A stretch of DNA of 43,485 bases, taken from Lachnospiraceae bacterium. GTDB taxonomy: Bacteria > Bacillota > Clostridia > Lachnospirales > Lachnospiraceae. The position numbers were made by a program, and so were the translations under genes. The DNA is taken from assembly GCA_017619635.1 (NCBI GenBank), contig JAFZRZ010000009.1:1-43485 (forward strand), read 5' to 3'. Below are positions 6,463 to 25,287 of the stretch, one piece after another. The notes below the pieces were generated by a model. The model made no database searches and had not been told where the DNA came from. It worked only from the letters and a program-made list of their open reading frames with translations. Position 1 is the first letter of the stretch, and the number at the start of each line of letters is the position of its first letter.

Positions 6463-6501
6463 TAAGTAAACATTTAAAATATATATTTTCAGGAGGAAAA
6501 C

Positions 6502-7652: not shown

Positions 7653-7691
7653 GAAACTTTTTCAATAACTAACAACAATAATTCAATTTAG

Positions 7692-7847: not shown

Positions 7848-7880
7848 ACGAAAAATCCCAAGACAATCTTCCAGTTGAAG

Positions 7881-14894: not shown

Positions 14895-17800
14895 TCATTT
14901 CGCTGTCCTGAAAATATAATCGATGTATGGTGTACCTTCAAAGCAAACGTAGGGTCCGTATGTCGGGACTGTGCAGACCATTGCCTTTATATTTCCGGGG
15001 ATCAGTATCTGATAACCTTTTGCTGACATTATCAGCGCTATCCTTTTTGTAGTCTCAGTATGAGATATATATTTTGCGGTATTTGTCAGATCCGTCCATA
15101 CCGAATCGGCCTCTCCCCTTGCGCTTAAGTTTTCTTTTTTGGGCCAGTCAAAATATTCCCACCATATATCAGCGTTCCCGTGATATTGTCTTGTCATGGC
15201 AGGATTCTCAGACATAAGAGGCACATTGTTCTTTGATAAAAACGAGATCGCCCCCGTTCTCTTATCCACTCTGACATTGAGTTTTTCAAGTCTTATCTCA
15301 ACCGCATCCCTGACATCCGCACATAGCCATTTTGTCGATGACTTTCTTTCCACTTCCGGTGGCAGTTCACCGATCTTCTCCAAATCGTTTTTAGAAAATA
15401 GCACCCTTACAGTTTCATCTGACACGGGGATAACCGTGAGAGTACCATATCTTCCTACGATCTCAACTTTGGTCTTATCTTTGTTTATCCATCTTATGGC
15501 ATTATCTATCTTTGCATGTCCTATAGGCTTCAAAGATGATGTAGCCGGCATGGTGGCAAACTCTGACTCTTTGACCTTCTTATCTTTATGATCCGCCTTT
15601 TCATTTACGGAAGCCTTTATCGCTTTTTTTAGCGGGGCTGATAAAGTCACCTTATCATCTGCACTCTTTTTATCATCCTTTGGTTTTACAACTATCTTCT
15701 TTGGACCGTATCTGTCTCTGAGTTCCCTGTCTCCGTCTCCTTCAAGAGCCTGTGCCCTTGCAACCTCTTCTTTAGTCTTAAATTCCTCTTCAAAAACATA
15801 TGGTTTAAGATGATAATCATCCTCTTTATAGGTCATATTCATCCTGTCTTCACTTATGGGATCTGCGACCAGTTTTGTCAGATCTCCAAGGTAAAACACC
15901 TTGAGTTCATGAAGTGCCCTTGTTGCTGCAACATACAAAAGCTTGGCATAAGCATCTTCTTTCGGATACGCTTTATCAGAGGCGTCATATATGATGACCG
16001 CATCAAATTCAAGTCCCTTGGAGTATTCTATCGGAAGCACATACACTCCTGATGAAAACTCTGTATCCTCTCCGGAAAAGTACTTAACCTGTGTATGTTC
16101 TGACAGGTGATCATAGACATCTTTAGCTTCAGATATATCTTTACAGATGACAGCGATCGTCTCATACTGCTTATCAGTCATATCTTTTACACAGTTCAGG
16201 ACCTTATCCTTAAGAGTTGTCTCATCAGCTGCATTTATACAGTCAACCCCATCCCCGTGACGTATGATCGGTTCGACAGGATAGATCGGAAATGTCCCAT
16301 GCCTTAAAATATCAGTTGCAAACTGTGATATCTCGACCGTGTTTCTGTAGCTTTTTCTCAAAAGGCCAAAGAAATCATATCTGTCCGGGAGCATTACTTT
16401 TTTAAGCTCCTCCCAGTCTCCAAGTCCGCAGTCGAAATTTATATTCTGGGACACGTCACCCATTATGGTAAATGTGCACTTGCTCATGCAGTACTTAAGA
16501 GAGTGGTATATCGTCATCCCAAAGTCCTGGGCTTCATCTATCACCACATGACTTGCTTCCTGTATGACCTCACTTTCCTTTATCCTCTTGTATATATAAG
16601 CAAGACCGGCAAGATCATAAAGATCGGGAGCGTCTTTCTCATAAATGATCTGAGGATATTCTCCCATCTCTTTTAATATAAACTCCTCATACAGATCAAA
16701 GACCGATCCTTCCCAGAGAAATCTGTTAAAGTAACCTGCGTATCTTCTGGTGAGTTTCTTTTGTTCTTCATCATTGTATGAATAATGTCTGCCGTATAAC
16801 TCATTTTCGAGTTTTCCCTCCAAGACATCATTCATACGCTCGAATTTACGGGCCATAGACCAGTCAGGATATTCAATGATAACCTTTTCAATATCCGCTT
16901 TGCTCATAATGAGATGGCCGTTTTTTTCTATCAGGATGTTCTCCCTCGGGATAAGCTCCCACTCTTTCTTTTTACAGAAAGCTTTAAGCTTTGAGAACCA
17001 TTCCCCTGTACCTTTTATCCCTATGCTCTTTTCTTTTTTATCAAATGAGCGGATCTTATATTTCTTCCTGTCCCAGTCTTCATAAAGGAGTCTTGTGAAA
17101 AGCTCCTCCATGGTCATCTGACGTACACCGTACACATCCAGATCCGGAAGCACTCCTGTTATGTAATTGAGCAGTACTTTATTACTTCCGACAATATAAA
17201 ACCCGTCGGGTTTAAACTCTGTTTCGTAATTGTATAAGATATAGGAGATTCGGTGCATGGCAACCGTAGTTTTTCCGGATCCCGCACTTCCCTGTACCAG
17301 GACGTTATGTCTGGGATTCTTTCGTATGACTTCGTTCTGCTCCTGCTGAATCGTTGCGATTATCTCGCTTAAGACATTTCTTTTGCTTTTTGACAGATAT
17401 TTCGTAAGAAGATCATCGTTTGCTACCACATCTGAATCATAGTAGTCCTTTATATCACCTTCCTCGATCTCATATGTTCTCTTTCTCTTGAGGTCTACCT
17501 TGAAGATTCCCTCTCCGGGTACCTTATAGCTGCAGTTTCCAAGACTGTGATCATAGTATACCGACGATATCGGTGCCCTCCAGTCGATGACCTCAGGTTC
17601 CGATGGATCCTTTGCTATAACAGTCTTTCCGATATAGAAGGTCTCACGCTTTTTGTTCTCATCGTCTTCAATATCGATCCTTCCAAAGAAAGGTTTCTTT
17701 CCTGCCCTCTCTGCTCTGCGCATATCATTGCGCACCTCTTTGAACCTCGCATCAGTGTTAAACCACTGTGCCAATCCTTCTTTGTCCTCAACATCATAGA

Positions 17801-17957
17801 CTTCTCTTAAGGATTTCAGTTCTTCCTGCAAATTTGCTGCATTCTTTTTGATCCCGTTTAGTTTTTCTTCGGCAACCTCTTTGACATGTCTAAGCTTCTT
17901 TTCCTCGTCCTCCCGGGTTGTTCCGTAGAAAGTTCCGGTTAACTTCTTTTCGCTCAT
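14895..17957 (-). CDS. HelD-like superfamily 1 helicase with an extra C-terminal beta domain
   Basis: 1020 residues from MSEKKLTG (GGAGG 6 nt upstream). The N-terminal coiled coil (about 10-50) and the UvrD-like core match HelD, the ATPase that removes RNA polymerase from DNA: Walker A QGSAGSGKTT (about 225), VIDEAQDFG (about 470), YVAATRALHEL near 690. HelD is normally about 740-780 residues. Here a charged linker (about 720-785) leads to a further domain of about 220 residues. It contains VRVLFS, VRVDKRTGAISF and a final beta-rich CFEGTPYIDYIF, which resembles the galactose-mutarotase-like N-terminal domain of GH31 glycosidases without any catalytic barrel. That last assignment is tentative. 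Confidence 0.88.
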   Translation of the reverse strand: MSEKKLTGTFYGTTREDEEKKLRHVKEVAEEKLNGIKKNAANLQEELKSLREVYDVEDKEGLAQWFNTDARFKEVRNDMRRAERAGKKPFFGRIDIEDDENKKRETFYIGKTVIAKDPSEPEVIDWRAPISSVYYDHSLGNCSYKVPGEGIFKVDLKRKRTYEIEEGDIKDYYDSDVVANDDLLTKYLSKSKRNVLSEIIATIQQEQNEVIRKNPRHNVLVQGSAGSGKTTVAMHRISYILYNYETEFKPDGFYIVGSNKVLLNYITGVLPDLDVYGVRQMTMEELFTRLLYEDWDRKKYKIRSFDKKEKSIGIKGTGEWFSKLKAFCKKKEWELIPRENILIEKNGHLIMSKADIEKVIIEYPDWSMARKFERMNDVLEGKLENELYGRHYSYNDEEQKKLTRRYAGYFNRFLWEGSVFDLYEEFILKEMGEYPQIIYEKDAPDLYDLAGLAYIYKRIKESEVIQEASHVVIDEAQDFGMTIYHSLKYCMSKCTFTIMGDVSQNINFDCGLGDWEELKKVMLPDRYDFFGLLRKSYRNTVEISQFATDILRHGTFPIYPVEPIIRHGDGVDCINAADETTLKDKVLNCVKDMTDKQYETIAVICKDISEAKDVYDHLSEHTQVKYFSGEDTEFSSGVYVLPIEYSKGLEFDAVIIYDASDKAYPKEDAYAKLLYVAATRALHELKVFYLGDLTKLVADPISEDRMNMTYKEDDYHLKPYVFEEEFKTKEEVARAQALEGDGDRELRDRYGPKKIVVKPKDDKKSADDKVTLSAPLKKAIKASVNEKADHKDKKVKESEFATMPATSSLKPIGHAKIDNAIRWINKDKTKVEIVGRYGTLTVIPVSDETVRVLFSKNDLEKIGELPPEVERKSSTKWLCADVRDAVEIRLEKLNVRVDKRTGAISFLSKNNVPLMSENPAMTRQYHGNADIWWEYFDWPKKENLSARGEADSVWTDLTNTAKYISHTETTKRIALIMSAKGYQILIPGNIKAMVCTVPTYGPYVCFEGTPYIDYIFRTAK

Positions 17958-18044
17958 ATCAGCCCTCCTTTTATTGTTCCTACATCTTAGCAAAATTTGT
18001 AAAAAAGGTATAGACTTGTTTTTCGAATTATGATATCATGCAAA

Positions 18045-18128
18045 ATGAAGTGTGCGAAAAAATACCGATGCATAAATCTGCACCGGTCAGAGAAATGAAA
18101 GTACCCACGGTTATGCCGTGGTTTTTTT
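18045..18128 (+). ncRNA. Candidate small RNA with its own promoter and terminator
   Basis: On the plus strand TAGACT and TATCAT are separated by 17 bp just upstream (about 18012-18040). The transcript would contain a hairpin ACCGATGCA..TGCACCGGT (about 18064-18087) and end in CCACGG-TTATG-CCGTGG followed by seven T (about 18108-18128). It is convergent with the tRNA operon and divergent from the helicase gene. Any peptide encoded would be very short. Confidence 0.4.
18108..18128 (+). terminator. Intrinsic terminator, plus strand
   Basis: CCACGG/CCGTGG stem with a five-base loop followed by TTTTTTT. On the minus strand the same hairpin lacks a T run, so it would end the tRNA operon only weakly. 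Confidence 0.65.
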
Positions 18129-18199
18129 GTGTAATAAATCGTTTATACCTCCTGTCTTCACCTTCTTTTTTGAAGTGGTTTTATACAGCAGGAGCAATA

Positions 18200-18272
18200 A
18201 GACCCCGATGGGATTCGAACCCATATATGCGGTTTTGCAGACCGCAGCCTTAAACCTTTGGGCTACGGGGTC
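18200..18272 (-). tRNA. tRNA-Cys(GCA)
   Basis: Full cloverleaf: acceptor GACCCCG/CGGGGTC, anticodon loop CTGCAAA, T loop TTCGAAT, U73 as usual for Cys. CCA is not encoded. Last gene of the island. Confidence 0.93.
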
Positions 18273-18283
18273 ATATACTATAA

Positions 18284-18354
18284 CAGGCCAGGAGAGATTC
18301 GAACTTTCACCGACGGTTTTGGAGACCGTTATGCTGCCATTACACCACAGGCCT
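18284..18354 (-). tRNA. tRNA-Trp(CCA)
   Basis: Anticodon loop CTCCAAA in an ACGGT/ACCGT stem; acceptor AGGCCTG/CTGGCCT with a mismatch-free outer part; G73 as expected for Trp. No encoded CCA. Confidence 0.93.
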
Positions 18355-18360
18355 TTATGA

Positions 18361-18448
18361 CGACAACGGAGGGACTCGAACCCTCATGGCGAATTAACGA
18401 CCTCACCGCTTAGCAGGCGGGAACCTTTACCATTTCGGTCACGTTGCC
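18361..18448 (-). tRNA. tRNA-Ser(GCU)
   Basis: Long variable arm, loop CTGCTAA, acceptor GGCAACG/CGTTGTC with one G-U pair, G73. Decodes AGC/AGU. Confidence 0.92.
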
Positions 18449-18451
18449 ATA

Positions 18452-18523
18452 TGCTCCGTACCCGACTTGAACGGGTATTGAACGCTTAGAAGGCGCTTGG
18501 TCTTTCCATTAGCCTAACGGAGC
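18452..18523 (-). tRNA. tRNA-Arg(UCU)
   Basis: Anticodon loop CTTCTAA, acceptor GCTCCGT/ACGGAGC, T arm ACCCG-TTCAAGT-CGGGT. Decodes AGA/AGG. Confidence 0.93.
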
Positions 18524-18528
18524 GTAAA

Positions 18529-18600
18529 TGCGAATGACAGGATTTGAACCTGTGACTCCCACCTTATCAGAGTGGTGCTCTACCGCTGAACTACATTCGC
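18529..18600 (-). tRNA. tRNA-Ile(GAU)
   Basis: Anticodon loop CTGATAA in a CCACT/GGTGG stem, acceptor GCGAATG/CATTCGC, A73. Regular cloverleaf. Confidence 0.94.
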
Positions 18601-18603
18601 ATA

Positions 18604-18675
18604 TGCTCTGTATCCGATTCGAACGGGTAATAAACGGTTCGTAGCCGTTTGGTTTATCCATTAGCCTAACAGAGC
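18604..18675 (-). tRNA. tRNA-Arg(ACG)
   Basis: Anticodon loop CTACGAA; A34 should be edited to inosine. Similar to the neighbouring tRNA-Arg(UCU). The T stem has one C-A mismatch (ACCCG/CGGAT). Confidence 0.92.
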
Positions 18676-18679
18676 AAAA

Positions 18680-18750
18680 CAGGCTTAACAGGATTCGAAC
18701 CTGTATCGTGAGGATCAAAGTCTCATGTGCTTCCCTTGCACCATAAGCCT
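18680..18750 (-). tRNA. tRNA-Gln(UUG)
   Basis: Anticodon loop CTTTGAT closed by an A-C mismatch at 31-39; acceptor AGGCTTA/TAAGCCT; G73 as typical of Gln. Confidence 0.9.
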
Positions 18751-18753
18751 AAA

Positions 18754-18825
18754 CAACCGCAACAGGACTTGAACCTGTATCTTAAGATTCAGAGTCTTAT
18801 GTTCTGCCATTTGAACTATACGGCT
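18754..18825 (-). tRNA. tRNA-Gln(CUG)
   Basis: Anticodon loop CTCTGAA in TAAGA/TCTTA; acceptor AGCCGTA/TGCGGTT; G73. A dedicated CUG isoacceptor next to a UUG isoacceptor. Confidence 0.92.
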
Positions 18826-18828
18826 TTA

Positions 18829-18912
18829 CGCTGCGCCAGAGATTCGAACTCTGATATCCGTTGGGAATGCCGGTTTTCAAGACCGGTGCTGTACCAGTTG
18901 AGCCAACGCAGC
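18829..18912 (-). tRNA. tRNA-Ser(UGA)
   Basis: Long variable arm, anticodon loop CTTGAAA, acceptor GCTGCGT/GCGCAGC (one U-G), G73. First tRNA of block 2. It begins 1 nt after the T run of the terminator upstream. Confidence 0.93.
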
Positions 18913-18953
18913 AAAAAAGCGGTCATTTCCTTCTCTACAGGAAACAACCGCTC
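18913..18953 (-). terminator. Attenuator-type terminator before tRNA block 2
   Basis: On the minus strand GCGGTTGTTTCC pairs with GGAAATGACCGC (12 bp, two G-U pairs) and is followed by TTTTTT, then directly by tRNA-Ser(UGA). It separates the TerD gene and a leader ORF from nine tRNAs, so these tRNAs need readthrough or antitermination, or a promoter I do not see. Confidence 0.75.
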
Positions 18954-18965
18954 AGAATTATAAAC

Positions 18966-18983
18966 AGTGATCTAGGTAATATC
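18966..18983 (-). repeat. Shared element copy D (GATATTAC..CTAGATCACT)
   Basis: GATATTACCTAGATCACT at the end of the leader ORF (its stop TAG lies inside), upstream of a terminator. A near copy with small gaps lies at 24141-24162, in the same position relative to the other tRNA block. Confidence 0.6.
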
Positions 18984-19094
18984 TCCCATATGAGTGACCA
19001 TGTATAAATTTGCATGACAAACAGACCAGATGCTGATACTAGACTGGCGTCTGATACATGATGATATCTGATTGTTTGTCATTATTGTCTTCAT
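18972..19094 (-). CDS. 40-residue leader peptide matching the downstream tRNA block
   Basis: ATG with AAAGGA about 7 nt upstream, stop TAG, 40 codons. Residues 9-26 read QISSCIRRQSSISIWSVC: apart from one Val, only Gln, Ile, Ser, Cys, Arg and Trp. These are exactly the six amino acids of the nine tRNAs that follow (Ser UGA, Gln CUG, Gln UUG, Arg ACG, Ile GAU, Arg UCU, Ser GCU, Trp, Cys). Codons fit too: TCA, CAG, CGC, ATC, AGA, AGT/AGC, TGG and TGT. The run lies inside a long hairpin (19016-19080), and a terminator follows 20 nt after the stop. I infer a leader peptide whose stalled ribosome controls readthrough into the tRNAs. No function is known for the peptide itself. Confidence 0.72.
   Translation of the reverse strand: MKTIMTNNQISSCIRRQSSISIWSVCHANLYMVTHMGDIT
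19016..19080 (-). promoter_or_regulatory. Long hairpin overlapping the sensing codons of the leader ORF
   Basis: GACAAACAATCAGAT pairs with ATCTGGT-C-TGTTTGTC (15 bp, one bulged C). An inner stem GTATCAGAC/GTCTAGTAT closes a GCCA tetraloop. A ribosome reading the Ser/Arg/Gln codons must open this helix, which suits attenuation control. Confidence 0.6.
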
Positions 19095-19108
19095 GGTCTT
19101 TTCCTTTC

Positions 19109-21154
19109 TTACCTGTTTATATAGGCGATCATCTTTTCAGTGTCATACTCTCTGATGATCAAAGCATCGCTGTCAGTTTGTACAGGCTTGTCTGTAACTA
19201 TCACCTCAGCTTCATTGATATCACTTACAACATTTTGTGCCATCATCTCAAAGAATGTGTACACGTTCATTGTCTCGGTCACATCAAAATAATCCAACAG
19301 AAAATCCATTTCGGTAGTTCCTGCCACGATCGCTGAACTGTCTCTTGCACAGTTTAGCCAGATAAGTTCGTTTGTTATAAGATCCAAACCGAAAAGGTAT
19401 GCAAAGGTACTGTCACAGTCTATCTTAAATGCAGTGTCAACTGTCTTTGGCTCATAAACCTGACCTGAGTCCTTGATATCCCTTGTCATATATCCGGCTC
19501 TGCAAAAACAATTGCTGAAAGGTATCCTTGAATAAACGTTGTCACATATTATCATGTATCTTATCTCAGGATAGAGCTTTCTTATCTCAGTGGTATCGAT
19601 ATCAAAATACTCGCTTCCGCCGTTGTATCCGCTTGTCTGGTCTCCGGAATATGTTATAGCCCTAGACTGTCTGTTTGCCATGGTTCTCCATGAGAACTCT
19701 ATTCTGTTTCCGTCATTGTCTATTCCAAAGAGTGAAAGATCGATATCGTTCACCTTTTCCCAGTAAGTGAATACACGTAACTTCTTTGTATCTCCAAGGC
19801 GTATCTTTGAACCCCTTGTAAGTGTTCCAAATCCACCCTGGGATGTGTTCTCCTGAACAGGAAGCGCATAGTTTGCCATATCAGGATCGATGTATACATT
19901 ACCCAGTCTACCTTTAAGGTTTCTCTTTATGTTTTCCCTGATAAAATCTGTGACTCTGTCGATTACATCAGGTGATATGACAGATCTTCTTGATCTTGTC
20001 TCCTCATCTGTTTCAACATGTACCTTTAACTTGTTATGCTTTGTGAACTTGAAAGCTCTCGCACCCTCTTCCTTATAATGAGCGTACTGCATGAGTAGCT
20101 GTATAAGTACGATGGTGTTGTCTGTCTTAATGTTTTCCAATACATAATCAAGATCATCAGCGTTATCGCATCTGCTTATGAGGTAATTGATATTTCTCAA
20201 AACAGTTGCGGATCCTTTTCCTCTCTTTAGAGCATCAACGGCGCTTTTTATGCTGTTCTCTCTCATTGCTCTCTCAAACTCAGAAAACACCGATTCGTTC
20301 TTATCAGAGCGCATAGCATTAACAAAGTATTGAGCCTCATCATTTGCAGCCTTGTAGTGGATGTGGTGTAAAAGGCCGTTCCATGCCTTTTTCTTCTCAT
20401 AACAGTTTCGGATGTCGCATCTTGATGACTTGAAAATCTCATTTATCAGTGAAGTTATGAATTTTCTGTCACTATTCTTTAGATTTAACTTGTTAAGTTT
20501 ATCGTTGTTGTACTCAGTGTAATTGATCTCATCGACCACCTTTATGACATCAGACAAATGCAAAAATCTTGCAAATCCGGTATCTCTAAGATCTACCAGT
20601 AATCTGATACAGGTGTTCTTCGATGCTATCTCTTTTATCTCATAAGAGGTTTCACATATGAAATCTTTTACAAGTTCATACTGACTGTCTGACAGAGGTC
20701 TTGTGGATAATAAAAGTTCATCTGTCATCTGAGTGAGCATACCTATAGCCTCCTCCTCAGTCACTATAGAAAACACCTTTATCTCCGCATTCTCCTTAAA
20801 TGCGATCCTGTCAAAGTTTTCCTCAAACAATGACTGACCGGCCTCTGAGAAATCCCCTATACCATAGGTTACAGTATAGTGAAACAACTGATCAAAGAGT
20901 AACTGATCCTTTGATAGCTTTCTTACGCTTTCAGGAAATCCCCTGTAAAAAGGTTCAGGAACATCCTTACCAAGCTGCTTTGAAACAAAGTTTATCATTC
21001 CTCTCTGGGCATACTTTGCCCCTTTGTCGATACGGATATTGAACATGTTCGCAAGTGTGAACAACACTTCAAATCCGTTCTCTTCATTAACATCCTTGTC
21101 ACAAACAAGGATATGCTTTTCAAATAAATGGTTTAAAAAAATCTCCTTTATCAT
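19109..21154 (-). CDS. TerD-domain protein with helical N-terminal region (MXAN_6230/SCO0854-like)
   Basis: 681 residues. The C-terminal third is a TerD-like beta domain: TRGSKIRL, NDIDLSLFGIDNDGNRIEF, ITYSGDQTSG, GGSEYFDID, IRYMIICDNVYS. TerD domains bind calcium and occur in stress (tellurite) systems. The N-terminal 400 residues are helical and probably HEAT-like. FYRGFPESV at about residue 63 recalls the MXAN_6230/SCO0854 family; that family usually has a RING finger after this motif, which is missing here. The 280 bp upstream hold three Y-RNA-like stem-loops, and AAGGAG lies 5 nt before the ATG. It is embedded between two tRNA blocks. I infer an RNA-associated stress protein, perhaps an analogue of Ro60. 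Confidence 0.75.
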   Translation of the reverse strand: MIKEIFLNHLFEKHILVCDKDVNEENGFEVLFTLANMFNIRIDKGAKYAQRGMINFVSKQLGKDVPEPFYRGFPESVRKLSKDQLLFDQLFHYTVTYGIGDFSEAGQSLFEENFDRIAFKENAEIKVFSIVTEEEAIGMLTQMTDELLLSTRPLSDSQYELVKDFICETSYEIKEIASKNTCIRLLVDLRDTGFARFLHLSDVIKVVDEINYTEYNNDKLNKLNLKNSDRKFITSLINEIFKSSRCDIRNCYEKKKAWNGLLHHIHYKAANDEAQYFVNAMRSDKNESVFSEFERAMRENSIKSAVDALKRGKGSATVLRNINYLISRCDNADDLDYVLENIKTDNTIVLIQLLMQYAHYKEEGARAFKFTKHNKLKVHVETDEETRSRRSVISPDVIDRVTDFIRENIKRNLKGRLGNVYIDPDMANYALPVQENTSQGGFGTLTRGSKIRLGDTKKLRVFTYWEKVNDIDLSLFGIDNDGNRIEFSWRTMANRQSRAITYSGDQTSGYNGGSEYFDIDTTEIRKLYPEIRYMIICDNVYSRIPFSNCFCRAGYMTRDIKDSGQVYEPKTVDTAFKIDCDSTFAYLFGLDLITNELIWLNCARDSSAIVAGTTEMDFLLDYFDVTETMNVYTFFEMMAQNVVSDINEAEVIVTDKPVQTDSDALIIREYDTEKMIAYINR

Positions 21155-21167
21155 TTCTTCTCCTTTT

Positions 21168-21233
21168 CTCTGATGAAAATCGTCGGATTAAAAATTGACC
21201 GTTTTTAAAAGTAAATCCGGCTAGCTATCAGAA
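21168..21233 (-). ncRNA. Y-RNA-like stem-loop 3 (no tRNA module)
   Basis: Outer helix TTCTGAT/ATCAGAG, internal loop with AGCTAGC on the 5' side and ACGATTTTC on the 3' side, inner helix CGGATT/AATCCG, then the shared TACTTTTA followed by a small AAAAA/TTTTT hairpin. It ends right before the Shine-Dalgarno of the TerD gene, so it may also influence its translation. Confidence 0.5.
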
Positions 21234-21310
21234 TCACTGAATATCGTGTCACTGTATCAGGATTCGAACCTGTCAAACCAAAATAAAAGTAAGCGACACT
21301 AGCTGTGTAA
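21226..21310 (-). ncRNA. Y-RNA-like stem-loop 2 with a lone T arm
   Basis: Inner helix GTGTCGCT/AGTGACAC (8 bp), 5' loop AGCTA, 3' loop GATATTC, then TTACTTTTA and a T-arm hairpin ACAGG-TTCGAAT-CCTGA with no matching acceptor or D arm. The outer helix is weak (CAC/GTG). It has the same plan as its two neighbours but with a reduced tRNA part. Confidence 0.5.
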
Positions 21311-21441
21311 TATCGGTGTTATCATCAGTTTAAAAAGCGGCGCTCTACCAACTGAGCTACAGGCCCTATGAGCCCGGCAGGATTCGAACCTGCGACATCC
21401 GTATCCCTGATAAAAGTAAAACTGATTAGCTACCAATATCA
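21308..21441 (-). ncRNA. Y-RNA-like stem-loop 1 with a circularly permuted tRNA module
   Basis: Minus strand order: T-arm half (21367-21400: GCAGG-TTCGAAT-CCTGC, CGGGCTC), ATA, then D-arm half (about 21336-21366: GGGCCTG, GCTC..GAGC). GGGCCTG and CGGGCTC pair over 7 bp, so the tRNA fold is intact but opened at the anticodon arm. The ends form a long stem instead: TGATATTGGT/ACCGATATTA (10 bp), internal loop AGCTA/GATAAC, ATCAGTTT/AAACTGAT (8 bp). This is the plan of bacterial Y RNAs of the YrlA type, where a tRNA-like effector module sits on a Ro60-binding stem. It lies between the YkuK and TerD genes. Confidence 0.7.
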
Positions 21442-21449
21442 TTATCCTA

Positions 21450-21944
21450 CTATTTGCTCAACCTGTCTGCTATAGTGCTCGATACGAACGAATCAGGTTT
21501 TACCTCACACTCGTATCCCACACTTTTGATCCATCCAACTATTGAAGGGATCAGTTCGCTGGTCTTGCTTCTGTCTGTCTTTCCTGCATCCACATGTATG
21601 GTAAATGTTGAATTATCATAAAGCTCCCCGTATATGGGATCGTTTTCTATGATCTCCAGCACAGTGTCTGCAGTCTTTAACGATAAGGTTGTCTCTTTAA
21701 AGAGTTTTTGCCTTATATCATTTATCTTGCTTACATGGCTTATCTCATAAAAGTATATACCGCTATGTCCCTCGCATACGATAGCTATGACAGTAACGAT
21801 CTTTGTGTTGCTGTGATTCTGACTGTCCGTTCCTACTATTATCTGGATCGGTGAATCAAAGCCTTTGACCCTATCATAATAAGCCAGAAGCTTAGCAGGT
21901 ATGTTCTCAATATTCAATTTTCCGTAAGTCAGGCTGTTGTACAT
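21450..21944 (-). CDS. YkuK-like protein (DUF458, RNase H-like fold)
   Basis: 164 residues from the ATG at 21944, chosen because GGAGG lies 8 nt upstream; that GGAGG begins only 2 nt after the 3' end of tRNA-Lys(CUU). The family is predicted to have an RNase H-like nuclease fold: acidic residues in IIVGTDSQNHSNT, then FTIHVDAGKTDRSKTSEL and the conserved tail EVKPDSFVSSTIADRLSK. Length equals Bacillus YkuK (about 170). Activity has not been established for the family, as far as I recall. Its place inside a tRNA operon, before Y-RNA-like genes, suggests work on structured RNA or tRNA (inference). Confidence 0.85.
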   Translation of the reverse strand: MYNSLTYGKLNIENIPAKLLAYYDRVKGFDSPIQIIVGTDSQNHSNTKIVTVIAIVCEGHSGIYFYEISHVSKINDIRQKLFKETTLSLKTADTVLEIIENDPIYGELYDNSTFTIHVDAGKTDRSKTSELIPSIVGWIKSVGYECEVKPDSFVSSTIADRLSK

Positions 21945-21959
21945 TTTTATATCCTCCAA

Positions 21960-22032
21960 TGCCTGCAGTGGGGTTCGAACCCACGACCTTCGGTTTAAGA
22001 GACCGCTACTCTACCAACTGAGTTACGCAGAC
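21960..22032 (-). tRNA. tRNA-Lys(CUU)
   Basis: Anticodon loop CTCTTAA, acceptor GTCTGCG/TGCAGGC with two G-U pairs, A73. Its 3' end abuts the ribosome binding site of the YkuK-like gene. Confidence 0.92.
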
Positions 22033-22036
22033 GCAG

Positions 22037-22108
22037 TGCGTCTGACAGGATTCGAACCTGCGATATACGGGTTAAAAGCCCGATGCCATACCGCTTGGCT
22101 ACAGACGC
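22037..22108 (-). tRNA. tRNA-Lys(UUU)
   Basis: Anticodon loop CTTTTAA in TCGGG/CCCGT, acceptor GCGTCTG/CAGACGC. Its U8-A9-G10 serves as the stop codon of a Lys-rich mini-ORF. Confidence 0.9.
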
Positions 22109-22152
22109 ATTTGACCATATTCCTTTTTTAAAGACTTTTGTTTTCGTTTCAT
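22099..22152 (-). CDS. 17-residue Lys-rich leader peptide before two tRNA-Lys genes
   Basis: AAGGAG, 7 nt, then ATG. The peptide is MKRKQKSLKKEYGQMRL: five Lys in the first ten codons (AAA, AAA, AAG, AAA, AAG). The stop TAG is positions 8-10 of tRNA-Lys(UUU), so the ORF enters the tRNA gene. The following genes are tRNA-Lys(UUU) and tRNA-Lys(CUU). I infer a cognate leader peptide: ribosomes waiting for Lys-tRNA would sit just ahead of the tRNA and could affect folding, processing or transcription. Too short for homology tests. Confidence 0.62.
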   Translation of the reverse strand: MKRKQKSLKKEYGQMRL

Positions 22153-22188
22153 TACAGTTCTCCTTTTTGTTACACATAAACGAAAAAG

Positions 22189-22271
22189 TCGGCAGGGTTG
22201 GACTCGAACCAACGCCGTTTCTTTGTCAGGGTTTTACAGACCCCTGCCCTCGCCGCTAGGCATACCTACCG
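22189..22271 (-). tRNA. tRNA-Tyr(GUA)
   Basis: Long variable arm, anticodon loop CTGTAAA, acceptor CGGTAGG/CCTGCCG, A73. Confidence 0.93.
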
Positions 22272-22286
22272 TTATATTTTTTATGA

Positions 22287-22371
22287 TGCGCCCAACAGGG
22301 ATCGAACCTGCATGTCCATAAATGACACCGGACTCTCATTCCGGCCTGTATTCCAGTTCCAGCATGAGCGC
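22287..22371 (-). tRNA. tRNA-Leu(GAG)
   Basis: Long variable arm, anticodon loop ATGAGAG, acceptor GCGCTCA/TGGGCGC. The T loop is TTCGATC. Fourth of four consecutive tRNA-Leu genes. Confidence 0.9.
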
Positions 22372-22374
22372 TTA

Positions 22375-22455
22375 TACGGGTGACAAGATTCGAACTTGCA
22401 AGCATATGCCACCAGGGTTTGAGTCTGGCTCCTGTACCGATTCGGACACACCCGC
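22375..22455 (-). tRNA. tRNA-Leu(CAA)
   Basis: Long variable arm, anticodon loop CTCAAAC with an A-C pair closing the loop, acceptor GCGGGTG/CACCCGT (outer G-U). Confidence 0.9.
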
Positions 22456-22458
22456 CTA

Positions 22459-22539
22459 TGGGCGTGAAGGGAGTCGAACCCTTATGCATAAAGCCACGGT
22501 TTCTAAGACCGCTATGTATACCTGTTCCATCACACGCCC
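22459..22539 (-). tRNA. tRNA-Leu(UAG)
   Basis: Long variable arm, anticodon loop CTTAGAA, acceptor GGGCGTG/CACGCCC with CCC end pairing, A73. Confidence 0.92.
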
Positions 22540-22542
22540 TTA

Positions 22543-22626
22543 TGGCGCAGATGAGACTCGAACTCACATTATCAGACTATCCCGGGATTTTAAGACCCGT
22601 GCGTATACCATTTCCGCCACTGCGCC
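22543..22626 (-). tRNA. tRNA-Leu(UAA)
   Basis: Long variable arm, anticodon loop CTTAAAA, acceptor GGCGCAG/CTGCGCC, A73. First of four tRNA-Leu genes and preceded by a Leu-rich mini-ORF that reads into it. Confidence 0.93.
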
Positions 22627-22680
22627 ATATTTATTAAGTTTTGTGCCACTCAGTCGCAGCAATCGTAATGATAACAACAT
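22564..22680 (-). CDS. Leu-rich leader peptide before four tRNA-Leu genes
   Basis: AAAGGA, 9 nt, then ATG. The first ten residues are MLLSLRLLRL: six Leu, with codons TTG, TTA, TTA, TTG, CTG, CTG, the codons read by the following tRNA-Leu(UAA), (UAG) and (CAA). The frame continues through the intergenic region into tRNA-Leu(UAA) and stops in its T arm after 38 codons, so only the first part is likely to matter. A strong nested hairpin (CAGGACAGA with TCTGTTCCTG; ACGGA with TCCGT; about 22710-22770) precedes it. I infer a cognate leader peptide. Confidence 0.62.
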   Translation of the reverse strand: MLLSLRLLRLSGTKLNKYGAVAEMVYARVLKSRDSLIM

Positions 22681-22772
22681 GATCTTTTTTCCTTTCTCAT
22701 TTCTTTTTTTAACAGCAGGAACAGATTATACGGACTGAAAATCTTTGTTGTGTGTTCCGTTCTGTCCTGCAA

Positions 22773-22843
22773 AGCTTTCTGATGGATTCGAACCATCATA
22801 CCTTGTTTACAGATCAAGAGTCCTTCCGTTGGACGAAGAAAGC
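22773..22843 (-). tRNA. tRNA-Thr(UGU), unusual C33
   Basis: Stem CTTGA/ACAAG with an A-A closing pair; loop TCTGTAA places UGU at 34-36 but gives C instead of the near-universal U33. Acceptor GCTTTCT/AGAAAGC, U73. Confidence 0.78.
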
Positions 22844-22851
22844 ATTCAAAG

Positions 22852-22924
22852 TAGGGCGGGTGAGAATCGAACTCACGACACACGGCTTATAAGGCCGCCG
22901 CTCTCACCCCTGAGCTACCGCCCC
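22852..22924 (-). tRNA. tRNA-Ile(UAU)
   Basis: Anticodon loop CTTATAA in GCGGC/GCCGT, acceptor GGGGCGG/CCGCCCT, A73. Reads AUA directly, whereas most bacteria use lysidine-modified CAU. Positions 8-10 (TAG) end an upstream mini-ORF. Confidence 0.88.
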
Positions 22925-22962
22925 ATATGGATATGGTTTGGTATCCGTATCAGTTTTTTCAT
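22915..22962 (-). CDS. 15-residue leader peptide with AUA codons before tRNA-Ile(UAU)
   Basis: GAAAGG, 8 nt, then ATG. The peptide is MKKLIRIPNHIHMGR, with Ile codons ATA, ATA and ATC; AUA is the codon read by the tRNA-Ile(UAU) that follows. The stop codon is TAG at positions 8-10 of that tRNA, the same arrangement as in the Lys leader. Weaker than the Leu and Lys cases because only three of 15 residues are Ile. Confidence 0.5.
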   Translation of the reverse strand: MKKLIRIPNHIHMGR

Positions 22963-23011
22963 CTGTTATCCCTTTCAATGATCATTATTAAGTGCTGTAT
23001 ATACACTTCAG

Positions 23012-23078
23012 TGTAGATCGCGAGATTTGAACTCACTCCTTCGCATAAACGATATGCCCTTAGTTACACCATACCTAC
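23012..23078 (-). tRNA. Divergent tRNA-Thr(CGU)-like gene
   Basis: Only 67 nt. T arm GTGAG-TTCAAAT-CTCGC, acceptor GTAGGTA/GATCTAC with one mismatch, stem GGCAT/ATGCG around loop ATCGTTT (anticodon CGU, U37 instead of a purine). The D arm is poor (TGT/GCA). It may not be a working elongator. Confidence 0.55.
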
Positions 23079-23143
23079 AAATGGAATACCGAAAGTGCCT
23101 GTTTCCGGCATTCCTATGCCATTTTTCGGTGTTACACACCGTA
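23079..23143 (-). other. Overlapping alternative hairpins between two divergent tRNAs
   Basis: CGGTGT-GTA-ACACCG and GGCAT-AGGA-ATGCC can form locally. Alternatively ACCGAAA pairs with TTTCGGT across the region, excluding the first hairpin. This looks like a switchable spacer. Confidence 0.35.
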
Positions 23144-23216
23144 TCACCCGTGCCGGCTACGATCCGGCATTTTCAGCGTGAAAGGCTGATTACCTATCCC
23201 ATTAGTAGAACGGGCG
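23144..23216 (-). tRNA. Divergent tRNA-Glu(UUC)-like gene
   Basis: Acceptor CGCCCGT/ACGGGTG and anticodon stem TCAGC/GCTGA (loop CTTTCAC) pair perfectly, but the T loop is ATCGTAG, with A54 and U58 exchanged, and the D arm is short. Start with C1-G72 is unusual for Glu. Confidence 0.65.
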
Positions 23217-23220
23217 TTAA

Positions 23221-23294
23221 TGTGACCGATCGGATTCGAACCGACGACCTTCGGATCCACAATCCGATGCATTGACCAGCTATGCTACAGCCAC
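23221..23294 (-). tRNA. tRNA-His(GUG) without encoded G-1/C73
   Basis: Anticodon loop TTGTGGA, acceptor GTGGCTG/CGGTCAC. Position -1 is U and 73 is A, so the G-1:C73 identity pair normally encoded in bacterial tRNA-His is missing. Confidence 0.88.
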
Positions 23295-23296
23295 AG

Positions 23297-23368
23297 TACC
23301 CGATGTAGGAGTTGAACCTACCTTTGCAGGTTGAGAACCTGCTGACCTTTCCGATAGTCGAATCGGGC
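23297..23368 (-). tRNA. tRNA-Glu(CUC)
   Basis: Anticodon loop TTCTCAA in GCAGG/CCTGC, acceptor GCCCGAT/ATCGGGT. A separate CUC isoacceptor is uncommon in low-GC bacteria. Confidence 0.88.
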
Positions 23369-23372
23369 AAAA

Positions 23373-23445
23373 TAGCGGATACGGGATTTGAACCCGTGTC
23401 TTTAGGGTATGAACCTAATAAGGAAAACCTCTCCTCCAATCCGCA
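23373..23445 (-). tRNA. tRNA-Met/Ile2(CAU), elongator-like
   Basis: Anticodon loop TTCATAC in TTAGG/CCTAA, so no initiator GGG/CCC stem. The acceptor has a U1-U72 mismatch over GCGGAT/ATCCGC. CAU could be Met or, if lysidinylated, Ile. Confidence 0.8.
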
Positions 23446-23446
23446 G

Positions 23447-23519
23447 TTGAGATGACCGGACTTGAACCGACACGTTCCTGAACCCAGATCAGGAGGGCTA
23501 CCAATTACCCAACATCTCA
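23447..23519 (-). tRNA. tRNA-Pro(UGG), unusual C33
   Basis: Stem CCTGA/TCAGG, loop TCTGGGT: anticodon UGG with G37 as in Pro, but C33 instead of U33. Acceptor TGAGATG/CATCTCA. One base separates it from the next tRNA. Confidence 0.8.
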
Positions 23520-23526
23520 ATATAAG

Positions 23527-23599
23527 TACCGACAGAGAGAATCGAACTCCCAACCTCTTCCTTGTAAGGGAAGCACTCTCCCGGTTGAGTTATGTCGGT
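23527..23599 (-). tRNA. tRNA-Val(UAC)
   Basis: Anticodon loop CTTACAA in CTTCC/GGAAG, acceptor ACCGACA/TGTCGGT, A73. Confidence 0.93.
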
Positions 23600-23603
23600 A
23601 TAG

Positions 23604-23676
23604 TGGAACCGAAGAGACTTGAACTCTCGACCCCCTGCTTGCAAGGCAGGTGCTCTCCCAGCTGAGCTACGATCCC
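23604..23676 (-). tRNA. tRNA-Ala(UGC)
   Basis: Anticodon loop CTTGCAA in CCTGC/GCAGG, acceptor GGGATCG/CGGTTCC, A73. It lacks the usual G3-U70 position of Ala: G3 faces U at 70 only through this GGTTCC pairing, which keeps one G-U at that site. Confidence 0.9.
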
Positions 23677-23693
23677 AATATTAAATATATGAA

Positions 23694-23765
23694 CGGTTTC
23701 AAAGGGATTCGAACCCTTGCTACCTGAGAGACAATCAGGCGTGTTGACCGCTACACTATGAAACC
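23694..23765 (-). tRNA. tRNA-Asp(GUC)
   Basis: Anticodon loop TTGTCTC in CCTGA/TCAGG, acceptor GGTTTCA/TGAAACC, G73 as expected for Asp. Confidence 0.93.
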
Positions 23766-23834
23766 AAATGGGCTGTCTGTTTTATGACGGTTGACATTTA
23801 AATCTGCCTCGTCGGGACAGATACCATATGATAG

Positions 23835-23907
23835 TGGACGGTACTGGTGTCGGACCAGTCCCTCCAGATCTTCAGTCTGGCGCTTCCACCGGGTTAGCTT
23901 ACCGTCC
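23835..23907 (-). tRNA. tRNA-Phe(GAA) with an odd T loop
   Basis: Anticodon loop CTGAAGA in CCAGA/TCTGG, acceptor GGACGGT/ACCGTCC. The T loop is TCCGACA, so the conserved U55 (pseudouridine) is C. Confidence 0.88.
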
Positions 23908-23909
23908 GT

Positions 23910-23936
23910 TCAGACGGCTCTAAATCGTATCTTCAT
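23910..23936 (-). CDS. Possible 8-codon mini-ORF before tRNA-Phe
   Basis: AGAGG, 9 nt, then ATG; peptide MKIRFRAV. The single Phe codon (TTT) sits before tRNA-Phe(GAA), and the stop lies in a CCGT-CTGA-ACGG hairpin that touches the tRNA. Much weaker than the Leu and Lys leaders and possibly chance. Confidence 0.25.
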   Translation of the reverse strand: MKIRFRAV

Positions 23937-24012
23937 TTCTTATTACCTCTTTTACTTATCTTTGATCTGCGATAAACAGGTGCCTGTTCTGTTTTCTCGC
24001 TGTTAATTTAAA

Positions 24013-24084
24013 CGGAAACGGTAGGGCTCGAACCTACAACCTCCCGGTTAACAGCCGGGCGCTCTTCCATTGAGCTACGTATCC
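24013..24084 (-). tRNA. tRNA-Asn(GUU)
   Basis: Anticodon loop CTGTTAA in CCCGG/CCGGG, acceptor GGATACG/CGTTTCC, G73. First tRNA of the island, 12 nt after the T run of a terminator. Confidence 0.93.
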
Positions 24085-24096
24085 AGATTTTTGCAT

Positions 24097-24131
24097 AAAA
24101 AAATCGCCTGCCAGATTTCCTGCAGACGATT
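24097..24131 (-). terminator. Attenuator-type terminator before tRNA block 1
   Basis: AATCGTCTGC pairs with GCAGGCGATT (one G-U), ten-base loop, followed by seven T. It stands between the 56-codon leader ORF and tRNA-Asn, mirroring the one at 18913-18953. Confidence 0.78.
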
Positions 24132-24140
24132 GCCTAAATA

Positions 24141-24162
24141 AGTGATCTTAGGTTGTAATATC
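24141..24162 (-). repeat. Shared element copy E (GATATTAC..CTAAGATCACT)
   Basis: GATATTACAACCTAAGATCACT, starting 5 nt after the stop codon of the leader ORF. Two exclusive hairpins are possible: AGTGAT/ATCACT or CCTAA/TTAGG. The near copy at 18966-18983 occupies the same place before block 2. Confidence 0.6.
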
Positions 24163-24165
24163 ACT

Positions 24166-24336
24166 CTAACATCGCAATCGTCCCCTGTTATTCTTATAAG
24201 AATCGTATTTATGTTCCGCTGTAATGGGTGCGCATATCAGCACACTGAGATCCTCATTTGAGCGCACGAAACTAAACATATCCCAAGAGTATGTTTTCTG
24301 CTGTCTGTTAAGATTGTTTAATACCGCCTGCAACAT
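24166..24336 (-). CDS. 56-residue leader peptide of the tRNA island containing all 20 amino acids
   Basis: AAGGAG, 5 nt, then ATG at 24336; a longer frame to 24390 lacks a ribosome binding site and overlaps a terminator. The peptide begins MLQAVLNNLN, has a middle part rich in rare or aromatic residues (KTYSWDMFSF, VLICAPITAEHKYDSYKNN) and ends GRLRC. It contains every amino acid, including single Trp, Cys-2, His and Pro, and ends with Asn-Asn near the terminator that precedes tRNA-Asn. Element E and the terminator follow directly. I recognise no protein family. I infer a general leader peptide that lets shortage of any aminoacyl-tRNA stall a ribosome upstream of the attenuator. Confidence 0.62.
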   Translation of the reverse strand: MLQAVLNNLNRQQKTYSWDMFSFVRSNEDLSVLICAPITAEHKYDSYKNNRGRLRC

Positions 24337-24373
24337 AATTGCTCCTTCTGATTCTTTAAATCTGATAGTTAAT

Positions 24374-24428
24374 AAAAAAAGTGCCGTCAACTATTTTTGA
24401 ATACCAAAAATAATCGAACAGGCACTTT
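24374..24428 (-). terminator. Early terminator in the 5' leader of the tRNA island
   Basis: AAAGTGCC pairs with GGCACTTT and TATTTTTG with CAAAAATA (loop GTATT); seven T follow. It starts only a few bases after the predicted transcription start, so most transcripts might end after about 60 nt unless antiterminated. Confidence 0.72.
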
Positions 24429-24438
24429 CGATGGTTTA

Positions 24439-24467
24439 ACTATACACGACTCTCAATTACTTGTCAA
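24439..24467 (-). promoter_or_regulatory. Vegetative promoter of the tRNA island
   Basis: TTGACA, 17 bp, TATAGT on the minus strand; near-perfect sigma-A type. Start of transcription predicted near 24432. No other promoter this good is visible inside the island. Confidence 0.8.
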
Positions 24468-24495
24468 CACATTTTTTGAAAAAATTTAAAAAATT

Positions 24496-25287
24496 TTAAA
24501 TACGGGCCATATGCTCATAACCTTCATGCGATAACGGGATCACGAAGGGTGTCATATCTTCAAGCCGAAGAAAGATCGCCGCATTGTTTATCCCGTAGTG
24601 ACCAAATGACAGTCCCCCATCGATATTTATAAGGTTTCCGATCTTATAAGGTTCAGGATATATCTCCTTATACTCATACACATTCCCGGATATCCGCTGT
24701 ACAGGAACATGGCCGGTTATAAAGATCTTATCATCATACAGGCCGTATACGTTTCCGCAAAATGTATCATATCTGAACATGGACCTCCAGACGATATCCC
24801 AGACCGCGTCATACGAAAGCTCACAATAAAGTTTTTCAAGATATCTCTCATCAAAATAGGAATGCGTCAGGACAGCTTTTTGAGTCTCTCCCGTTTCCTC
24901 TGATACAAATGATATCTGCATGATCAGTTTTCTCTTGGTCAGCCATTCGAGCAGGGCTTTCCTGTCAGGAACGGATAAAAGGACATATTTACTGTAAGTA
25001 TATATACCTCCGTTGGAATACAGCCACAGATCCGCATCGTCTCCGCCACACTTGTAACTTCCGTTTGGATCGACAGAGTTAAGCATCATAAACTCATGAT
25101 TTCCAAGGATCAGATCCATGTTTTCTCTTCTTTGGATCTCCCTTAATATCCTGACCCCGTCCGAGCCTCTGTCAATGGCATCACCAACGACATACAGTCT
25201 GTCTTCATTGTTAAATTTGATTGTTTTCAGCCCCTGCCTGAACACATCATAATGTCCATGCAGATCAGATACCACGTATGTTGCCAT
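24496..25287 (-). CDS. PPP-family metallophosphoesterase
   Basis: 263 residues from MATYVVSDLHGH (the longer frame to 25353 lacks a ribosome binding site). Metal-binding motifs in order: SDLHGH, VGDAIDRGSDG, LGNHEFMM, LTHSYFD and ITGHVPVQ, as in bacterial serine/threonine phosphatases and ApaH-like enzymes. So it is a calcineurin-type two-metal phosphatase; substrate (phosphoprotein or dinucleotide) unknown. The gene lies just upstream of the tRNA-island promoter on the same strand, and downstream of the LemA/DUF3137 pair. Confidence 0.88.
   Translation of the reverse strand: MATYVVSDLHGHYDVFRQGLKTIKFNNEDRLYVVGDAIDRGSDGVRILREIQRRENMDLILGNHEFMMLNSVDPNGSYKCGGDDADLWLYSNGGIYTYSKYVLLSVPDRKALLEWLTKRKLIMQISFVSEETGETQKAVLTHSYFDERYLEKLYCELSYDAVWDIVWRSMFRYDTFCGNVYGLYDDKIFITGHVPVQRISGNVYEYKEIYPEPYKIGNLINIDGGLSFGHYGINNAAIFLRLEDMTPFVIPLSHEGYEHMARI

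Follow-up and report, generated by a model that had tools for sequence, protein, structure and literature searches.

Leader peptides matched to the tRNAs behind them in a Lachnospiraceae tRNA island: a candidate case of ribosome-mediated attenuation of replacement tRNA genes

A tRNA island in a Lachnospiraceae genome carries small open reading frames whose codons match the tRNA genes that follow them. The arrangement suggests with fair probability a tRNA-replacement operon gated by ribosome-mediated attenuation, in which the sensed molecule would be the regulated tRNA itself. The stretch of DNA analysed (the window, 43,485 nt, contig JAFZRZ010000009.1) belongs to a 3.04-Mb draft assembly. A sequence-only reading of this DNA had drawn attention to one of the leaders, termed ORF2 here; absent from it were that the nine tRNA genes concerned form the second block of a 28-tRNA island with 19 tRNAs upstream, that serine and arginine boxes are sampled separately, and that leaders stand at other blocks. 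Sequence content, conservation and predicted folds are reported directly, and from them we infer translation of the leaders, antitermination and the trigger.

The island and its two long leaders

ARAGORN recognised 28 tRNA genes in the window, all on the minus strand, in blocks of 19 and nine. The blocks are separated by an RNase H-like gene, a Y-RNA-like gene, the gene for a 681-aa protein and then ORF2. The features are as follows.

24439..24467, minus strand: promoter, sigma-70-type, TTGACA-17-TATAGT, 11/12, best of 9 consensus matches (shuffles average 17.7)
24374..24432, minus strand: head element, a hairpin with loop AAGUGCCUGU and an overlapping terminator-like hairpin (terminator 0); covariance model R1
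24166..24336, minus strand: ORF1, the head leader, 56 codons holding all 24 sense-codon boxes and all 20 amino acids
21960..24085, minus strand: block 1, 19 tRNA genes (ARAGORN)
21450..21959, minus strand: RNase H-like protein gene (PF04308)
21315..21414, minus strand: YrlA-type Y-RNA-like gene (53.4 bits, E 3e-10, under the Rfam gathering score of 69)
19109..21154, minus strand: 681-aa protein gene, distant NCBIfam MXAN_6230/SCO0854 match (112.6 bits against a cut-off of 600)
18972..19094, minus strand: ORF2, 40-codon leader, regulatory codons 9-26 at 19017-19070
18200..18913, minus strand: block 2, nine tRNA genes, Ser, Gln, Gln, Arg, Ile, Arg, Ser, Trp, Cys (ARAGORN)

The promoter at 24467-24439 would start the island transcript. 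Block 1 contains tRNAs for Asn, Phe, Asp, Ala, Val, Pro, Met, Glu, His, Glu, Ile, Thr, four Leu, Tyr and two Lys. A tRNA-like sequence at 23012-23078 (minus strand; 25.1 bits against an Rfam cut-off of 29) is perhaps a decayed or odd tRNA; the related island L135 has a tRNA-Gly there. The 681-aa protein gave no usable match among solved structures. Directly 3' of the island a HelD-like protein is encoded at 14895-17993 (minus strand; 357.7 bits against an NCBIfam cut-off of 419), and a gene at 1593-4643 (minus strand) encodes a 1016-aa protein with WD40-like repeats and, at its N terminus, a TIR domain.

DNA search identified a second, paralogous island (L134) on another contig of the same genome. 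The draft genome holds 84 tRNA matches over the cut-off, with 28 in the window island, 28 in the stretch of the second-island contig and 28 elsewhere. The island is a large tRNA cluster extra to the other tRNA genes of the genome, as is a stress-induced backup array. Encoding of CCA did not separate island tRNAs from chromosomal tRNAs.

ORF2 starts 14 bases past the end of the 681-aa gene behind the Shine-Dalgarno sequence AAGAAAGGAAAAG, and its product is MKTIMTNNQISSCIRRQSSISIWSVCHANLYMVTHMGDIT, ending at a stop codon; a terminator-like hairpin and then block 2 follow. Of the 18 residues in the core, QISSCIRRQSSISIWSVC, 17 belong to {S,Q,I,R,C,W}, the set for which block 2 carries tRNAs. The sequence-only reading had described this composition, the nine tRNA genes for exactly those amino acids and a terminator between them, and each of these was confirmed, the terminator being a terminator-like hairpin at 18953-18917 with a T-run. 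None of 1388 background small ORFs (ATG and Shine-Dalgarno, 20-70 aa, from 1.25 Mb of related loci and the remainder of the window) has an 18-residue window with 17 such residues. The signal sits in the core, because the enrichment of all 39 residues relative to pooled leaders reaches only P=0.052. The tRNAs of block 2 correspond to eight codon boxes (UCN, CAR, CGN, AUY, AGR, AGY, UGG and UGY). All eight occur within 20 codons in ORF2, the two Ser boxes and the two Arg boxes being sampled separately, and in 12/1388 background ORFs.

ORF1 is 53-65 codons long across islands. Among ten islands it covers 24/24 boxes in five, 23 in four and 21 in one, these ten including the close relatives WIN/L135 (WIN being the window island), L180/L181 and L185/L186. 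Background ORFs of 50-66 aa reach 24 boxes in 0/276 cases and 23 boxes in 5/276, and random codons give 24 boxes in 1.2% of cases at 54 codons and about 4% at 62. Given the divergence from the window, the chance of keeping 24 boxes is 0.025 for L134, 0.020 for L136, 0.010 for L138 and 0.17 for L135; for the remaining islands the observed box number has a chance of 0.10 to 0.81. A related head leader is found in L141 (G007:C9), where ORF1 stands alone before 19 tRNAs, without sub-leaders. All 19 tRNAs of L141 carry a 3' CCA, and six other islands have 0 or 1 such tRNA each.

Matched leaders in related islands and at other tRNA blocks

Related islands were gathered through homologs of the 681-aa protein, by DNA search and with covariance model R1 of the head element. 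Nine block-2 leaders were obtained, from the window, L021, L022, L006, L007, L134, L180, L181 and L185; eight stand before tRNAs and L181 is a decayed remnant without them. The relatives' peptides are MKTMTNIQITSSNRCQSRINSWSVCHANLYMLTHIGKIT (L021), MNTMTNIQTSSCERIQVRISVWSVCHATLYMVTHMGDMT (L022), MNTMIIKKIISQSVNSQSPVGSWCVRDAIRYLHDPVGNMT (L006), MNTMIMKKTDSNRVISQLLNRSWCVYDALRYLHDPIGNMT (L007), MKTTMFRRISSCISSWQQSSSLISHAILSDRTG (L134), MTHIENSRISSRRSQSRQQRWISCRGKDSYG (L180), one beginning MTHIVNSRISSRQSQSGQQCWISCRGKE (L181, tRNAs lost) and MTNFNFWQISCSSQRSQQISRWSVRVRIKSGKLKS (L185). The reading frame is open in 9/9 copies, and the 3-base gap that separates the window from L021/L022 is in frame. 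A block-2 array lacking a conserved ORF, the case named beforehand as speaking against the proposal, was found in none of these loci, the ORF being kept in 8/8 arrays with tRNAs and in the decayed remnant.

All eight boxes lie within 20 codons in 8/8 leaders computed, the window included, against 12/1388 in the background. The ninth leader, L185, also has all eight, as read from its codons and not by the box script, and it was found by the head model regardless of its block-2 leader. The best 18-residue windows contain 17 matching residues in the window, 14 in L021, 13 in L022, 12 in L006, 9 in L007, 17 in L134, 18 in L180 and 17 in L181; background ORFs equal the values of L021, L022, L006 and L007 in 15, 53, 115 and 600 of 1388 cases, respectively. 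The chance that all boxes would survive if the codons differing from the window were random is 0.05 to 0.75, and for this reason the conservation argument for block 2 is by itself moderate. A simulation of turnover of block-2 codons under constraint gave a weak result and is not counted as support.

ARAGORN recognised all nine block-2 tRNAs in only two of the eight arrays, the window and L021. It found six each in L022, L180 and L185, eight in L134, and seven named plus one unassigned in L006 and in L007. Inspection by eye shows a candidate Ser-like sequence ahead of the first tRNA recognised in L180 and L134. In G014 (L006) an Ile(gat) gene is located in block 1, and Ile codons are still present in the block-2 leader. 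These arrays speak against a strict co-variation of peptide with tRNA content, which had been put forward as a check: all eight boxes are kept even where some tRNAs are missing or unrecognised.

The residue bias of ORF2 might be a by-product of an internal RNA hairpin, the structure mattering and the peptide not. A hairpin with a z of -3.84 does cover the core in the window, where ATCAG/CTGAT repeats occur. L134 and L180 keep the boxes with very different sequence, however, and the Leu, Lys and Tyr leaders described below match their own tRNAs without that sequence, which makes this explanation very unlikely. The hairpin as sole source of the bias was rejected, since the codon boxes persist in homologs of different sequence.

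Smaller leaders precede further tRNAs of block 1.

23910..23936, minus strand: short leader MKIRFRAV and stop before tRNA-Phe, a weak match with one Phe codon
22915..22962, minus strand: short leader MKKLIRIPNHIHMGR and stop, with two AUA codons, before tRNA-Ile(UAU); stop within the tRNA; P=0.28 alone
22564..22680, minus strand: Leu-rich leader beginning MLLSLRLLRLSGTKL before four Leu tRNAs, extending into the first
22099..22152, minus strand: Lys-rich leader MKRKQKSLKKEYGQMRL and stop before two Lys tRNAs, its stop codon falling at position 10 of the tRNA

In other islands the Leu leaders are MLLRLVLPLLRGLNELNSA, MLLLQLRKKTS and two beginning MLLSLRLLRHCSLKL and MLLLRLRLQLNNANY, and the Lys leaders are MKRKQKLLIKYDQMRL, MFIRKKRKQKRIQINT, MKRKQDKSKKQKRYLRL, MKRKQKRKYRKPK, MKRKQKRKQLKMIHMRL and, weakly, MMQEMVRRKRKRMI. 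Tyr leaders are METDYYYIKE, MYEYCENTD and MDHYQYKAKILLR; the Tyr tRNA of the window has no leader and sits 15 bases past Leu. An Asn leader in L134, MQLRLRLYLNNNNMDP, was picked by eye, has a weak Shine-Dalgarno and overlaps the end of an HNH frame. Ile(UAU) leaders read MKKLIRIPNHIHMGR or MKKKIRIPNHIYMGR and Phe leaders MK(I/V)RF... or similar, both being weak matches. No matching leader was found for Asp, Ala/Val/Pro/Met/Glu/His or Gly units. A conserved element, GACGAGG...AAUG(U/C)CAACCGUCAU, occurs before Asp, Ala or Val (23756-23797 in the window, similar in L134, L135 and L136); it resembles a small ORF (MSTVI... or MPTVI...) with no match to its tRNAs.

The stops of the 13 Lys, Tyr, Ile and Asn leaders fall within the range from tRNA position -10 to +11. 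The ends of Phe leaders range from -29 to +22 across five islands and lie at +98 in L185 and L186, and Leu leaders in three islands extend to tRNA +39 or +64. No terminator was found behind the short leaders.

The match between leaders and blocks was assessed by permutation with a fixed selection rule in six islands (WIN, L134, L135, L136, L180 and L185). The observed match was equalled in 54 (WIN), 28 (L134), 33 (L135) and 14 (L136) of 20000 permutations, and the result was weak in L180 (1330/20000) and L185 (949/20000). With another background the counts per 20000 were 22 (WIN), 185 (L134), 36 (L135), 19 (L136) and 1330 (L180). L138, L141, L186, L021, L022, L006, L007 and L181 were left out, having few leaders, one block or no tRNAs; leaders of islands outside the permutation are covered in the other composition and box tests. 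Controls were five tRNA arrays of other origin adjoining relatives of the 681-aa protein, on viral contigs (L097, L098 and L100) and bacterial MAG contigs (L080 and L081). They are 5/8 of the arrays with at least three tRNAs outside islands, those omitted being L096, with tRNAs like those of L097, and L102 and L103, with three tRNAs each. ORFs matching their own tRNAs at P<=0.01 number 14/43 in the six islands against 0/26 in the controls. Control permutations gave, per 20000, 2431 (L097), 10045 (L100), 20000 (L080), 14373 (L081) and 550 (L098), so that L098 is not a clean control. The claim that leader codons match the following tRNAs with a terminator between is thus supported across relatives, and the same logic extends to other tRNA blocks.

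Small ORFs could also couple translation to transcription and shield a long tRNA operon from Rho, their codons being incidental. Small reading frames with a Shine-Dalgarno do occur in many spacers, some of them without a match to their tRNAs. Against this stand the block-specific composition, which beats permutation in 4/6 islands, the box coverage of ORF1 and the terminator-like hairpins after both ORF1 and ORF2, and we regard shielding from Rho as an improbable account of the leaders.

The islands carry other genes in or near the tRNA arrays. The Y-RNA-like gene is present in the window island and three relatives. In L134 an RtcB-type RNA ligase gene (5361-6563, minus strand) lies between the Lys tRNAs and the block-2 leader; a Pfam scan found no RtcB among 30 window ORFs. 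The same island has a NUMOD4/HNH endonuclease-like frame (9376-9975, minus strand), possibly a homing endonuclease, between ORF1 and tRNA-Asn. Overlapping the end of this frame, and ahead of Asn, is a small ORF with NNNN. Upstream of this paralogous island, on the same strand, lies a tmRNA gene (L134:11095-11496, minus strand; 94.5 bits), perhaps the insertion site of the island. An R2K-type ATP-grasp protein (L180:6528-7679) and an NT5C-like gene (7661-8185) follow directly behind the L180 array, and a Tox-GHH nuclease domain protein (L185:6730-7656) lies near the leader-gated tRNA island of L185. R2K-type ATP-grasp proteins belong with RNA repair.

Model R1 matched 3/397 genomes of the family at E<=0.01, 3/392 at order level, one a probable false match, and 1/391 at class level, this being the window's own genome with no further genome found; searches over more than 40 genomes used stricter filters, losing weak matches. 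It matched 5/20 genomes in the window's genus and 2/7 in the genus of G391. A match in G646 (L187) was rejected as a false hit, because 14 kb there contain tRNAs on neither strand. Islands with open, matched leaders span three genera. Of 83 loci with the 681-aa protein, 10 show at least three plus-strand tRNAs within the stretch retrieved, and for that reason the protein is no marker of the system. Seven phage records share tRNA stretches alone, about 1% of the query. Two exact head patterns had 0 matches in viral contigs, which leaves a phage origin of the head element unsupported.

The array could be a decaying phage or plasmid remnant and its leaders functionless relics. The L181 island has lost its tRNAs, the distribution in the family is patchy and some block-2 tRNAs are unrecognised in relatives, as decay would predict. 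However, 56/84 of the tRNA matches of one genome lie in its two islands, leaders are open and matched across the three genera and viral contigs lack the two head patterns; we consider it very doubtful that the leaders are relics.

Predicted switches and the proposed mechanism

Two sets of predicted switches and two spacer hairpins accompany the long leaders.

24097..24183, minus strand: predicted antiterminator 1, whose arm 24174-24183 lies at the end of ORF1, with terminator 1 (24097-24134)
23969..24000, minus strand: spacer hairpin whose loop carries CAGGCAC, complementary to the head loop
23083..23114, minus strand: second spacer hairpin, whose loop carries ACAGGCACUU
18933..18994, minus strand: predicted antiterminator 2, formed by the end of ORF2 and the 5' arm of terminator 2
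18913..18953, minus strand: terminator 2, 15 pairs and then a T-run, fold of -22.2 kcal/mol

Terminators 1 and 2 are present in relatives too. In the helix of antiterminator 1 of the window GGACGAUUGC pairs with GCAAUCGUCU, and the pairing is preserved despite double changes in L180 (G-C to A-U) and L141 (A-U to G-C). The folding model assumes that the ribosome covers 15 bases beyond the start of the A-site codon and that the RNA is cut before the 3' arm of the terminator. Under this model the 5' arm of terminator 2 in the window is in the antiterminator at 0.98 with the ribosome at codons 7-31 and at 0.38 with the ribosome at the stop. The stalled-minus-stop difference of ORF2 was equalled by 0 of 200 shuffles for WIN, 4 for L021, 4 for L022 and 1 for L006, and was no better than shuffles in L007 (31/200), L134 (79/200) and L180 (39/200). 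The modelled energy of the ORF2 antiterminator is ordinary in most copies, being equalled in 15 (WIN), 6 (L021), 22 (L022), 29 (L006), 30 (L007), 33 (L134) and 164 (L180) of 200 shuffles. For ORF1 the antiterminator energy was equalled by 0 of 200 shuffles in WIN, L135, L134, L180 and L181, by 2 in L136 and by 4 in L141, and the stalled-minus-stop difference by 8 (WIN), 13 (L135), 18 (L134), 60 (L136), 20 (L141), 7 (L180) and 9 (L181).

In the proposed attenuation a ribosome slowed on ORF2 by lack of a block-2 tRNA would allow antiterminator 2 to form, and polymerase would read into the cognate tRNAs; a ribosome finishing ORF2 would cover the antiterminator arm and terminator 2 would form. ORF1 would gate the operon on shortage of any tRNA and ORF2 the Ser/Gln/Arg/Ile/Trp/Cys block. 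The short Leu, Lys, Tyr, Asn, Ile and Phe leaders, mostly abutting or overlapping the next tRNA, would act on single tRNAs. Unstalled ribosomes at their stops would mostly sit on the tRNA 5' end, perhaps hindering maturation, and this mechanism is a guess because no terminator lies there.

The leaders could alternatively be attenuators that sense amino-acid starvation or antibiotic-slowed translation, the tRNAs boosting decoding or competing for scarce synthetases. Classical attenuators respond to uncharged tRNA, which favours such a signal. So does the Anabaena trn array, described in PMC10272220 as induced by translation-targeting antibiotics. Extra tRNA cannot make good a missing amino acid, however, and Y-RNA-like, RtcB and R2K-type genes lie inside or beside islands, so that we hold sensing of starvation or antibiotics to be unlikely, if less so than the alternatives above. 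Loss or damage of tRNAs is the likely trigger of the proposed attenuation, because extra tRNA genes cannot cure a lack of amino acid and because of these same genes. The earlier proposal that stalling antiterminates the cognate tRNAs is supported in its core: the predicted antiterminator would be freed by a stall on the regulatory codons. The gene content fits tRNA loss better than amino-acid starvation as the signal.

A further layer may involve the head element. The loop of its hairpin (24413-24432) overlaps the 5' arm of terminator 0. Spacer copies of CAGGCAC are present in 7/7 intact islands with this head, one to three in each and 14 in total, against 0.06-0.24 expected per island; most copies are in a hairpin loop. 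The decayed L181 has no spacer copy. The head sequence of L185 and L186 is GGAAGCGCC, and each of the two has one spacer hairpin with GGCGCUUCC (L185 at 1563, L186 at 2455), both sides having changed together; the shorter GGCGCUU is found at three further places in L185, within or beside tRNAs. In 20 genomes the short head-loop pattern showed no excess over a reversed control. The spacer hairpins are possibly a trans-acting feedback RNA, action in trans being predicted because a downstream spacer comes too late for the head of its own transcript. A self-gating system of three layers, in which ORF1 is a pan-codon sampler, block- or tRNA-specific leaders admit the missing species and spacer hairpins signal in trans, is put forward tentatively, at somewhat less than even chances. 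Hairpins cut from tRNA spacers, with loops complementary to the head terminator, would then report processed operon RNA to the promoter-proximal switch.

If the proposal is correct, cells would gauge the decoding capacity of single tRNAs via ordinary codons and replace the missing species, closing a feedback loop in which tRNA shortage senses itself to make tRNA. Bacterial survival of tRNA-cutting toxins, phages and defence nucleases would become directly testable, and the leaders would offer a ready-made, codon-addressable sensor for tRNA shortage.

Comparison with known systems

The trp, his, leu and pheST leaders combine regulatory codons with a mutually exclusive antiterminator and terminator, and ribosome stalling leads to readthrough. 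The island shares with them a leader ORF, regulatory codons, a predicted exclusive antiterminator/terminator pair and predicted readthrough on stalling. Its leader ORF has a ribosome-binding site and is open in relatives, its codons match the product and an intrinsic terminator lies between. Unlike these systems, the island would regulate tRNAs themselves and not biosynthetic enzymes or synthetases, ORF2 samples six amino acids and ORF1 up to 24 boxes, and further leaders inside the operon touch single tRNAs.

Leader-peptide control of tRNA genes was found in none of the matches listed from open-licence PubMed Central full text, in agreement with the statement of the sequence-only reading that it knew of no described system like this, and the nearest system in function is the Anabaena trn operon. 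According to PMC10272220, this silent operon of 26 tRNAs is induced by translation stress and repressed by TrcR, which also represses rtcB. Like the island, the Anabaena array exists beside housekeeping tRNAs; it is stress-induced and rtcB is co-repressed (PMC10272220). It differs from the island proposal in using a DNA-binding repressor, and words starting leader or attenuat are absent from the main text of PMC10272220.

A TROVE protein with a tRNA-like partner is presented as an RNA repair platform in PMC7824862. The Y-RNA-like gene of the island and the RtcB gene of the paralogous island recall RNA repair operons (RtcR-RtcBA, and Ro60 with Y RNA; PMC7790460, PMC7824862), and by this analogy tRNA damage is a probable common theme. 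The island differs in encoding whole replacement tRNAs, and leader peptides would do the sensing. Large tRNA clusters are also shared with the phage and other-contig arrays (L097, L098, L100, L080 and L081), in which, unlike the island, none of 26 small ORFs matches at P<=0.01, though the L098 permutation gave 550/20000.

The T-box riboswitch senses uncharged tRNA in Firmicutes. A T-box was rejected here, no T-box family being matched in Rfam searches of the window island (18000-24600, cmscan, up to E=5) or of eight related loci (L136, L003, L180, L006, L007, L185, L134 and L022); sensing in the island, unlike that of the T-box, would run through the translating ribosome. The principle of attenuation is known, and the gating of replacement tRNAs and the combination of a pan-codon sampler with nested cognate leaders are new to the sources searched.
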